NCBI GenBank assembly: GCA_017620205.1
Contig: JAFZQX010000040.1
Span: 1 to 64,000, forward strand
Length of the DNA: 64,000 bases
Direction: 5' to 3'
Origin: Clostridia bacterium
GTDB taxonomy: Bacteria; Bacillota; Clostridia; UMGS1883; UMGS1540
This document shows, one piece after another, positions 2,919-40,369 of this stretch. Below the pieces are notes generated by a model that ran no database searches, was not told the origin of the DNA, and saw only the letters and a list, made by a program, of their open reading frames with translations. The position numbers were made by a program, and so were the translations under genes. Position 1 is the stretch's first letter, and every line of letters starts with the position of its first letter.

Positions 2919-2929
2919 ACATAGGACAA

Positions 2930-3024
2930 CAAGACAGGGGAGCTCGGTGTGCCGGGCTGAGAGGAAGTAATAAAAGCTTTGACCCTTAAACCTGATGCGG
3001 ATAATGCCGCCGTAGGAAGCATAT
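2930..3024 (+). promoter_or_regulatory. TPP riboswitch aptamer (THI element), complete
   Basis: Carries both halves of the thi-box: the pyrimidine-binding arm (GGGCTGAGAGG ... TTGACCC) and the pyrophosphate-binding arm (ACCTGATGCGGATAATGCC ... CGTAGGAAGC). It lies between the promoter and the thiW operon, followed 18 nt later by an intrinsic terminator. TPP binding would therefore stop transcription of thiW-thiM-thiE-thiD-thiC. The family assignment is established knowledge; the regulatory sign is inferred from the terminator. Confidence 0.95.
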
Positions 3025-3041
3025 AAAAAGCTTTGTGCGAT

Positions 3042-22139: not shown

Positions 22140-22262
22140 TATGATATACCCTTTAAAAAATTAAAGGGCTCTTTATCAGCAGACAAAGAACCCATATTAT
22201 CATTATGAGTATCCTCGGCAGGATTTATTTTTGCACCTGCTGTCTGCGGATTATTAAATTAA
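22140..22262 (-). promoter_or_regulatory. L10 leader (ribosomal protein autoregulatory RNA)
   Basis: The rplA-rplJ gap, read on the minus strand, holds the L10 leader hallmarks: a CCGCAGACAGCAGGTGC ... AATCCTGCCGAGG helix, the GGTTCTTTGTCTGCTGATAAAG segment, and a final CCCTTTAATTTTTTAAAGGG hairpin before the rplJ Shine-Dalgarno. L10-(L12)4 is known to bind such leaders and repress rplJL. Confidence 0.85.
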
Positions 22263-22273
22263 GATTCACCCTA

Positions 22274-36849: not shown

Positions 36850-36878
36850 TTGACTGGAACGCTGAAAATTGTTATAAT
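36850..36878 (+). promoter_or_regulatory. Promoter of the cobalamin-riboswitch gene
   Basis: TTGACT (36850-36855), 17-bp spacer, TATAAT (36873-36878), just before the riboswitch. Confidence 0.85.
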
Positions 36879-36899
36879 ATTAAAGAAAAATGAATATAC

Positions 36900-37100
36900 G
36901 CAACAGAGTGCCTTATACGCTGTAACGAGCTCTGCTCAGGCGCATGGGGTGAAAAGGGAAAGAGGTGCGAATCCTCTGCGATAACGGTCGCTGTATGTGT
37001 TTCTATGTTTTACGCCGTCGGTGAAAGCCGGTCATTGGGAAACTGAGAAGGCATGGTGTAAAACGGTTAAAGGCACGAGCCAAAAGACCTGCTCTGATGC
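36900..37100 (+). promoter_or_regulatory. Cobalamin riboswitch
   Basis: Contains the class hallmarks in order: GGGGTGAAAAGGGAA, GGTGCGAATCCTCTGCG, AACGGTCGCTGT, GTGAAAGCCGGTCA, GGGAAACTGAGAAGG, and the B12 box AGCCAAAAGACCTGCTC, followed by a closing region. Placed between a strong promoter and an intrinsic terminator, it should switch the next gene off when the cobalamin coenzyme is plentiful. Confidence 0.93.
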
Positions 37101-37208
37101 CGATCCGTACTTGTATTATACATAGGATAGGCAGTTTAAAATGAAGTATACTTTGGGGTATGCTTATTTGTGTTGCATTTAAATTGCGTATTTTGCAGAA
37201 ACACTCCG

Positions 37209-37240
37209 CTGCATTGATTTTTAAATCAGTGCAGTTTTTT
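37209..37240 (+). terminator. Riboswitch-controlled intrinsic terminator
   Basis: CTGCATTGATTT / AAATCAGTGCAG, 12 bp with one G-T pair, followed by TTTTTT, 28 nt before the start codon. Expression platform of the cobalamin riboswitch. Confidence 0.88.
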
Positions 37241-37267
37241 CTTGCACGCAGAAAGGAAGTAATACAA

Positions 37268-40200
37268 ATGAACACAACAAAGAAACTGCTATCACTGCTC
37301 CTTGCTCTGGCTATGGTATTAGGCCTGTGCAGTATAAATGTTTTTGCGGAACCCGCAGAAGTTACAACCGCAGACATATATATTGTTGCACAGCTCAGTG
37401 GCGGTTTTCTGGCGCCTCCTCAGGTGGTAGAGGTATCAAGTGATTTATCCGAAAAATACGGCTTTGAGGACGAAGTAGACGGCGTTTCCGTACTTGACGC
37501 GCTTATAAAAGAGCACGAGCTTGTCTTCGGATCGGACTTTACAAAAGACACCGCAAGCGATTATCTTGAAGTTTCAAACGGCAGCGCAACAAAAGAATTC
37601 GGCATATCGTCAAGCACATACTTCGGCGGTTTTCTTGTAAACGAAGGCTATCCCAATGACGGTACCGCAAGCCCTTACGGCACCGGCTACAACGGCACTA
37701 CATATACAACGCATAAACTCGTATCGGGCGATAAAGTTGATTTTTTCTTTTATGAAGACACGTACTGGGGCGACACCTATACATGGATAGACGGAGACCT
37801 TTCCACTCTGCCGGGAGATGATTTGGAAGTAACCGTTACCGGAACTATGGTAATGGCAGGATATATGTATAAAACACCGGAAGAATTTAAAGAATCCGGC
37901 GAAGAAATAGAAGACGCATCATTTGCATGGGTAAGTGAAGACGGCGCTATAACCGGAATTGAAGGCGTTTATACGGACGAGGACGGAGAAGCTTCTATCC
38001 CGATACCCGATGATATGGAGCCCGGCATATATTATCTTACTGTACTGCCCGAGTCAGAAGAATATATGTTCTTATGTATAATGAACCCCACGCCGGTTAA
38101 TATAGGAAACATTAAAACAACGTATGTAAGCATAAGCCAAAATGCAGATTTTGTAGAAACAAAAGACGGACAAACCTTTAACCGGCTGCCCGTAACGATA
38201 TCGGGCAAGTATGTATATACAATAGACGATGTGCTTTCTGCAGCTCACAAAGAATATGCGGATGAGGATCACGGCTATGAATCGGGCGAAAGCTTTTACG
38301 GTCTTTCAATACTCAAACTATGGGGCGATACTAGCGGCGCTTTCGGATATTATCAGAATGACAATTCTTCATGGTCTCTTGACGATGAAGTGACGGAAGG
38401 CGACTTTATATCGGCATTTATATATAAAGATCAGGACGGCTGGAGTGATACTTATACAAAGTTTGAAGAAATCTCAGTTTCAACAAACGTGGGTGATGAA
38501 ACAGAATTTACCCTTTTAAAATATGATTGGGTCACAAATTCGTTTATCCCCTGTGAAGGCGTTGCCATTGGCGTTTCAAAGCTTGCTGACACTTCTGCCG
38601 TAACCGATGCAGACGGCAAAGCGACACTCACATTTCCCGCAGTGGGCACATACACGGTTGTTGCCAAGAGCGCGGACGCGCCCGTTATTGTTCCCTCATC
38701 CTGTACCGTAACGGTAGTGTCGGTTGCGGTTACGGATATAGATATTGATAACACTTTAACCGTTTATGAAAACAAAAGCAAACAGGTAGGCTATGGAATA
38801 GCACCTACAAACGCTACTGACAAGAGCGTTTCATGGGAATCGTCCGACAACGGTGTGGCAACTGTTTCGGAAGACGGCTTAGTCACAGGCGTTAAGGCGG
38901 GCACGGCGACAATAACTGCCAAAACAAACGACGGCGGCTTTTCTGACAGCTGTGAAGTGACGGTAAAAGCAATTCCGTCAGCGCTTGACATCATGCATGG
39001 CATTGCCGCGAAATACGCGGAAAATGGCATAGCAAACGACATTAACGCGCCGTGGTTTGCGGCGGATCTGGCGGCATACAAAAAGGCATTTCCCGATACG
39101 GAAAACGTTTTATCGGACGAGCAGGTACAGGAATATCTCGACAAACTCATACCTGCATCTGCAGAAGCAACAAAAGCGGGCGATCTCGCAAAATGCATTA
39201 TAGCGCTTCGTGCACTCGGCTTTGACCCCGAAAATATAATTACATCGGATTTCAGTTCCGTAAACATAGTAGAAAAGCTTCATAAACTTATTGAAGACGA
39301 AAACGCGGCGGTTAAAAGTATATACACTCTTCCATATGTTATTATCGCCATGAATGAAGATGAAACTTATCTTTCAGCCGATGATACTGCCAAACTTATT
39401 TCTTATGCCATAGATCAGAAAAATGCTTGGCAGGATAACTCATGGGGCGTTGATACGGCAGCTGCCATGCTCCTCGCTTTATCACCGCTTTACGATACAA
39501 ACGAAGAGGTAAAAGCTGCTGCGGACGAAACAATAGAAATGATGAAGAATGCGCAATATGATGACGGCTCTTTCGGAAACGCGTCTTCAACGGGACTGGC
39601 GGTTGCGGCACTTTCTGCATACGGCATTAACTGCTCGGAACTTAAAAAAGAAGACATGAGCGCTTTGGAAGGCCTTGCAATAAATGCAACGGATACTCTT
39701 GACGGTTTCAACCCCGCATCTAACAGCTTCGGTACGGAGCAGGGCTTCCGAGGCCTTGTGGCAAATCAGCTTTCAGGTTCAAGCATTTATGATTTCTCGG
39801 ATAATCCAAAAAACACGGCACAGGCTACATGGGGAGAAAACTGCCCCGTCACATTTGTTGTTACTCCCGATACCGCCGAAATAACTGTTGAATGTCAGGA
39901 TGCCGTATCGGATGGCAAATACGATCTGCCCGCCGGAACGTATAACTACACCGTGTCCCAAAGCGGTTTCAAAACGGCCGGGGGCACGTTCGCGGTAACA
40001 GATGCAGATGCTGAAAACCACACTCCGAAAACAATAAACGTATCTCTCGAAATCGACTCTTCGTCATCGGACAGCGGCGTTCTCATAAGCGTTACGGATG
40101 TTTTGGAAAGCGGCAACCCGGTTGTGTCGGTTTCGGCTGACAACAGGGAAAGCACCACGCAGGACGCGCTCCTTTTCCTTGCGTTTTATGGTGAAACGGG

Positions 40201-40369
40201 ACGCGTAATTGATATAAAATGCGCAGATATCAGTTTGGCTCCGAATGAAATAAAGAGCGACATTTCATTTATGGTGCCGGACGGTGCACTTTCATACAGA
40301 GTATTTTTATGGAACAAGGTAATGCACCCTCTTTGCGGTACGGCAAGCGGCAAGCCTAGTGACAATTAA
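37268..40369 (+). CDS. Secreted transcobalamin-like protein: two DUF4430-like domains, BIG2 and an alpha/alpha-toroid region
   Basis: 1033 residues. The ATG at 37268 has AAAGGAAG upstream and gives a clean signal peptide (KLLSLLLALAMVLGLCSINVFA). Residues ~35-185 resemble the transcobalamin/intrinsic-factor beta domain (DUF4430): VSVLDALIKEH, SSTYFGGFLVNEG, SGDKVDFFFYED. A second copy lies at ~283-415 (YVYTIDDVLSAAHKE, GAFGYYQND). A BIG2 Ig-like domain follows at ~481-567 (WESSDNGVATVSEDGLVTGVKAGTATIT). At ~569-854 helical pairs such as NSWGVDTAAAMLLALSPLYD and YDDGSFGNASSTGLAVAALSAYGI resemble prenyltransferase/intrinsic-factor toroids. The C-terminus is beta-rich with no LPXTG. With the B12 riboswitch, an extracellular corrinoid-binding role is inferred, not shown. 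Confidence 0.8.
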   Translation: MNTTKKLLSLLLALAMVLGLCSINVFAEPAEVTTADIYIVAQLSGGFLAPPQVVEVSSDLSEKYGFEDEVDGVSVLDALIKEHELVFGSDFTKDTASDYLEVSNGSATKEFGISSSTYFGGFLVNEGYPNDGTASPYGTGYNGTTYTTHKLVSGDKVDFFFYEDTYWGDTYTWIDGDLSTLPGDDLEVTVTGTMVMAGYMYKTPEEFKESGEEIEDASFAWVSEDGAITGIEGVYTDEDGEASIPIPDDMEPGIYYLTVLPESEEYMFLCIMNPTPVNIGNIKTTYVSISQNADFVETKDGQTFNRLPVTISGKYVYTIDDVLSAAHKEYADEDHGYESGESFYGLSILKLWGDTSGAFGYYQNDNSSWSLDDEVTEGDFISAFIYKDQDGWSDTYTKFEEISVSTNVGDETEFTLLKYDWVTNSFIPCEGVAIGVSKLADTSAVTDADGKATLTFPAVGTYTVVAKSADAPVIVPSSCTVTVVSVAVTDIDIDNTLTVYENKSKQVGYGIAPTNATDKSVSWESSDNGVATVSEDGLVTGVKAGTATITAKTNDGGFSDSCEVTVKAIPSALDIMHGIAAKYAENGIANDINAPWFAADLAAYKKAFPDTENVLSDEQVQEYLDKLIPASAEATKAGDLAKCIIALRALGFDPENIITSDFSSVNIVEKLHKLIEDENAAVKSIYTLPYVIIAMNEDETYLSADDTAKLISYAIDQKNAWQDNSWGVDTAAAMLLALSPLYDTNEEVKAAADETIEMMKNAQYDDGSFGNASSTGLAVAALSAYGINCSELKKEDMSALEGLAINATDTLDGFNPASNSFGTEQGFRGLVANQLSGSSIYDFSDNPKNTAQATWGENCPVTFVVTPDTAEITVECQDAVSDGKYDLPAGTYNYTVSQSGFKTAGGTFAVTDADAENHTPKTINVSLEIDSSSSDSGVLISVTDVLESGNPVVSVSADNRESTTQDALLFLAFYGETGRVIDIKCADISLAPNEIKSDISFMVPDGALSYRVFLWNKVMHPLCGTASGKPSDN

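Follow-up and report, generated by a model that had tools for sequence, protein, structure and literature searches.

A cobalamin riboswitch-controlled secreted protein of a Clostridia bacterium with a transcobalamin-type toroid and a probable role in extracellular corrinoid capture

What is the function of a large secreted protein whose gene lies directly behind a cobalamin riboswitch in a Clostridia bacterium? The original prediction, made for a 64,000-nucleotide stretch of DNA (the window), placed a strong promoter, a full cobalamin riboswitch and a 12-bp intrinsic terminator before a 1033-residue protein, and proposed, by analogy with intrinsic factor and transcobalamin, that this protein may catch corrinoids outside the cell. 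Every coordinate in it holds, and the leader elements are all real (Table 1). The aptamer scored 51.1 bits, compared to a gathering threshold of 31.5 (E 8.3e-10, computed over 64 kb and 4227 families), and the terminator stem had a folding energy of -15.4 kcal/mol (z -3.9), a stability reached by 0/200 shuffled sequences. The same stem was present in the leader of a paralogous gene elsewhere in the genome. The terminator is likely the off-switch of the riboswitch; no antiterminator, i.e., an alternative pairing with the riboswitch, was visible in a single-sequence fold of the leader. The window also contained a TPP riboswitch (2926-3035, 61.9 bits) and, on the minus strand, a ribosomal protein L10 leader (22153-22267, 54.2 bits).

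Table 1. Features of the riboswitch-controlled gene in the window, and location of the paralogue operon
Feature	Position	Strand	Evidence or remark
Sigma-70-type promoter, TTGACT-17-TATAAT, extended TG	36850..36878	+	Consensus match only, 11/12
Cobalamin riboswitch aptamer, RF00174	36904..37096	+	Core near-identical to that of the paralogue-operon riboswitch
Intrinsic terminator, 12-pair stem (37208-37235) and T run	37208..37242	+	Sequence, folding energy
Purine-rich ribosome-binding site, AGAAAGGAAG	37250..37259	+	Sequence
Transcobalamin-like secreted protein, 1033 aa	37268..40369	+	ORF, Pfam; ATG at 37268, stop at 40369
Signal peptide, Sec-type (residues 1-27)	37268..37348	+	Sequence pattern, by inspection
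N1 module (28-277), DUF4430-like beta and prealbumin-like domain	37349..38098	+	hhalign 93% to DUF4430
N2 module (278-483), DUF4430-like beta and carboxypeptidase-regulatory-like domain	38099..38716	+	Profile comparison
Big_2 Ig-like spacer (487-564)	38726..38959	+	PF02368, E 2.1e-17
Alpha/alpha toroid, PF01122-type (571-850)	38978..39817	+	Pfam; invariant TEQGFRGL motif of the family
PEGA/carboxypeptidase-regulatory-like domain after the toroid (851-929)	39818..40054	+	Homology to the paralogue stops here
C-terminal domain, ~100 residues	40055..40366	+	C37, C40 and C8 matches; replaces DUF4430 and SLH
Paralogue operon	L005 5805-15811, contig 40		Second cobalamin riboswitch at its head

Downstream of the signal peptide, the predicted alpha/alpha-toroid region was borne out, since residues 631 to 793 matched PF01122, the Pfam family "Eukaryotic cobalamin-binding protein" (intrinsic factor, transcobalamin and haptocorrin), with an E value of 4.9e-12 and 45.9 bits against a curated cut-off of 25; the predicted BIG2 spacer was likewise recovered by Pfam. 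Neither a lipobox nor SLH or LPXTG motifs were found in the 1033 residues, and the protein thus has no detectable anchor. A search of NCBIfam with the protein gave no match, and a sequence search of the PDB gave only Ig-like and similar domains. The C-terminal domain has no Pfam family; other secreted proteins encoded by the genome carry copies of it at identities of about 25% and above.

The claim of two DUF4430-like domains was supported in part. PF14478 (DUF4430) gave no Pfam match at E<=1 anywhere in the protein, so that neither N1 nor N2 reached the profile cut-off. Remote homology was nevertheless detected by hhalign with a DUF4430 profile built from the DUF4430 domains of the family itself, at 93% for N1 (P 2.8e-7, score 46) and 49% for N2 (P 1.7e-4, score 31), compared to a best score of 20 for shuffled sequences; the reversed controls also scored far lower. 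Between themselves, the two modules showed a clear relationship (hhalign 98%). N1 additionally contained a SpaA-type Pfam match below the cut-off, and N2 is the common N-terminal module among relatives of the protein.

The 2.34-Mb genome contains two cobalamin riboswitches, the one described above and another heading an operon that encodes, in this order, a paralogue of the window protein, a toroid-SLH protein, a DUF4430 protein anchored in the membrane by its N terminus, EcfT and, adjoining it, a single-chain EcfA-EcfA'-S fusion. The paralogue has 1339 residues and is 74% identical to the window protein over 926 residues (about 75% between the toroids). Its toroid, scoring 51-53 bits against PF01122, is followed by a PEGA-like domain, a DUF4430 domain (PF14478, 49.9 bits), a Listeria-Bacteroides repeat and three SLH domains, and its order, toroid then DUF4430, is that of transcobalamin. 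The second toroid of the operon matched SQHop_cyclase_C in Pfam. For the S-component profile, the best match was ECF-CbrT (6fnp, E 6.2e-18), followed by RibU (E 5e-5); ECF-CbrT, whose S-component has been characterised both structurally and biochemically, carries both cobalamin and cobinamide (PMC5997447). No CbiD gene was found in the genome, which does encode a MetH-like protein carrying DIHDIG, a B12 motif; this suggests a B12 requirement without de novo synthesis and would fit a corrinoid importer. A PduO-type adenosyltransferase was not found, which counts against a role in B12 capture.

At the window copy, the neighbouring importer and DUF4430 genes, the SLH domains and the C-terminal DUF4430 domain are all absent. 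Because it lacks the C-terminal beta domain, it was not classed as a complete transcobalamin; judged by its sequence, it is a paralogue with homology in the toroid only. The most likely reading is an apparently unanchored paralogue that is released from the cell or attached to it loosely. Compared to the operon copy, it is conserved under purifying selection, with a dN/dS of 0.24 overall and 0.14, the lowest of any segment, in the toroid.

Fold models were compared with known structures. The toroid-PEGA-DUF4430 part of the paralogue was modeled with a pLDDT of 93.3 and a pTM of 0.84, and when this model was searched with Foldseek against 350,542 PDB chains, the 16 best matches were, without exception, chains of transcobalamin, haptocorrin or intrinsic factor (E 8e-12 to 4e-4). 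The beta domain alone superposed on that of human transcobalamin (5np4) with a TM score of 0.76 at 2.8 Å, whereas the full-length superposition on transcobalamin was poor (TM 0.34-0.38, rmsd 26 Å). Since there was no rigid whole-molecule superposition, the model supports the domains and not their placement, which may differ from that in transcobalamin or may simply not be predicted. For the N-terminal region, N2 was modeled confidently and N1 was not, and Foldseek gave generic beta-sandwich matches only; the expected resemblance to B12 carriers was thus seen, by model, in the toroid-beta module of the paralogue and not in the N region. By sequence, a profile of the toroid alone (A9) gave no significant PDB match, and a broad profile of all canonical members found squalene-hopene cyclase chains before intrinsic factor. 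The case for the fold is therefore built on PF01122 and Foldseek, through which the proposed analogy with transcobalamin and intrinsic factor holds as homology.

We gathered relatives by scanning genome contigs for a protein pattern, without regard to RNA, which gave 80 loci, mostly from metagenome-assembled genomes of gut Clostridia, together with Pseudoflavonifractor, Clostridium luticellarii and Pelotomaculum. A cobalamin riboswitch lay just upstream of 58 of the 70 intact toroid genes (56 found by a riboswitch model, on the strand of the gene and within ~450 nt of it, and 2 added by Rfam), compared to about 1 expected by chance from 67 matches placed randomly on both strands of 1.26 Mb. 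Many of these loci carried the full five-gene operon. Together with the CbrT-type importer in the paralogue operon, this linkage upheld the predicted connection to B12. PF01122 was matched by 10/13 of the nearest toroids and SQHop_cyclase_C by 1/13. Across 292 sampled genomes of the class, the profile of the toroid-DUF4430 module was matched in 106, and cobalamin riboswitches were present in 99/106 of these versus 131/186 of the others (tables counted by eye).

The original prediction had also described a domain order opposite to that of the mammalian carriers, with a doubled beta domain. This was seen in the window copy but is not the basic plan of the family, as the beta domain was C-terminal to the toroid in 39/57 intact relatives. 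In 12 of the 57, beta-like modules preceded the toroid and none followed it, and 11 of these 12 had a separate DUF4430 protein encoded downstream of them, in most cases with an N-terminal membrane segment or a lipobox. The window protein shares the order of these 12, but it also lacks SLH domains and a neighbouring DUF4430 gene. Vescimonas fastidiosa, a cultured human gut species, encodes a surface protein annotated as "cadherin-like" (L128 13227-17924) in which a DUF4430 domain and an N1-type domain are combined with a toroid at the C terminus, and because this protein has the beta-first order, that order is no accident of assembly. No riboswitch was found near the Vescimonas toroid gene. In a sister genome (L035 8247-9101), an N2 module was joined to an apparent two-repeat dockerin without a toroid, possibly a cellulosome-attached relative.

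The paralogue operon with its CbrT-like importer, the fold matches to B12 carriers and the riboswitch linkage among relatives together argue for a bacterial transcobalamin-type corrinoid-capture system that feeds an ECF transporter. The window protein is very probably part of such a system for extracellular B12 capture, and we consider it probable that it is itself a secreted corrinoid-capture protein of the transcobalamin/intrinsic factor type, relaying its ligand to riboswitch-controlled surface machinery and a CbrT-type ECF importer. At low intracellular cobamide, the riboswitch would let transcription through the terminator; the protein would then be exported, and its toroid, with a DUF4430-type beta lid, would bind corrinoids outside the cell. 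As the window copy lacks a C-terminal DUF4430 domain, the lid would have to be supplied by N1/N2 or by the membrane-anchored DUF4430 protein encoded separately in the paralogue operon. The corrinoid would be handed to machinery encoded elsewhere in the genome, passing via the SLH-anchored paralogue, the second toroid-SLH protein and the membrane-anchored DUF4430 protein to the importer. Against this stands that a DUF4430 domain may occur in proteins unrelated to B12.

The capture system could be real and the window copy nonetheless a truncated, non-binding paralogue that has kept an old riboswitch and now serves as an adhesin, matrix protein or scaffold. Its missing C-terminal DUF4430 and SLH domains, and a C-terminal domain common to other secreted proteins, would fit such a fate, and the N2-dockerin protein without a toroid implies that these modules get reused. 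We regard this as unlikely, however, given that constraint is strongest in the toroid, where the residues invariant across the family are retained, that both riboswitch and terminator are retained, and that the C-terminal DUF4430 domain is equally absent from the 12 beta-first relatives, nearly all of which have a separate DUF4430 protein instead. That the ligand is something other than complete cobamides seems more doubtful still. Cobinamide or another corrinoid precursor would be the better candidate here, since cobinamide is also taken up by ECF-CbrT (PMC5997447), and heme, too, has a known ECF transporter (PMC7299338); control by a cobalamin riboswitch and the fact that, among solved S-components, CbrT is the closest nevertheless point to corrinoids and make heme unlikely.

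It would be very surprising if the toroid were instead a surface enzyme resembling terpene cyclases or prenyltransferases, with the riboswitch reflecting a B12-dependent pathway and not capture. The order of hits with the broad profile and the SQHop_cyclase_C match of the operon's second toroid are the observations that speak for it, but the window protein is exported, its paralogue adjoins the CbrT-type importer, and the structure search with the paralogue model favours B12 carriers. For the window toroid, which matches PF01122, identity as a squalene-hopene cyclase or prenyltransferase was rejected, as it has no DxDD motif and no SQHop or Prenyltrans match.

How does the proposed system compare to known ones? 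Like the mammalian carriers of PF01122, the proteins are secreted, and the paralogue and most relatives carry the toroid followed by a DUF4430-type beta domain. They differ in being bacterial, riboswitch-controlled, S-layer-anchored or unanchored, with extra N-terminal beta modules and Ig spacers, in the missing C-terminal beta domain of the window copy, and in their link to an ECF importer where the carriers use receptor endocytosis. The S-component of the paralogue operon is a homologue of CbrT from Lactobacillus delbrueckii (PDB 6FNP), and EcfT and EcfA are present as in ECF-CbrT; unlike the latter, the operon has a dedicated A-A'-S fusion as well as extracellular toroid and beta proteins. 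The likeness to BtuG and BtuH of Bacteroides, surface proteins that capture B12 and feed an importer (PMC6143338, PMC8941943), is functional only, and no family membership is claimed: BtuG is a beta-propeller lipoprotein that partners BtuB in the outer membrane.

In some genome annotation subsystems, DUF4430 proteins bear names that make them additional parts of predicted cobalamin ECF transporters. LGG_02295 of L. rhamnosus, a DUF4430 protein encoded beside rtpR, and the database name "Additional lipoprotein component of putative cobalamin ECF transporter" (PMC9963975) tie such proteins, through their context or their name, to cobalamin ECF transport or the use of B12, but no toroid partner is described in that paper, where their function is given as unknown. 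Each kind of component is known separately, and what seems to be new is their combination. No description of the operon or of a bacterial transcobalamin was found in the open-access literature that was searched.

Cobamide acquisition by Firmicutes is little understood (PMC8941943), and the extracellular gathering of cobamides by Gram-positive gut bacteria is largely uncharted; the operon offers a concrete candidate for Clostridia. Tentatively, and with slightly less than even confidence, we propose that Clostridia possess a widespread transcobalamin-homologous apparatus for B12 capture and relay, controlled by cobalamin riboswitches and comprising S-layer toroids, beta lids that sometimes reside on separate proteins and a CbrT-type ECF importer, that this apparatus may represent the bacterial equivalent of the vertebrate B12 carriers or their origin, and that the window protein acts within it as a released, siderophore-like corrinoid scavenger. 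With bacterial relatives of the vertebrate carriers at hand, their origin, binding by split domains and competition with host carriers become testable.

Two minor observations concern the N1 module. Between the window protein and its paralogue, dS was 0.32 in N1 (window 37349-38098), far below the 1.1 of the toroid, which suggests gene conversion at the 5' end of the two genes. In the sister genome, an OLE RNA (L034 7951-8575, 453 bits) lay within 1 kb of a gene for an N1 module, at the end of a contig.
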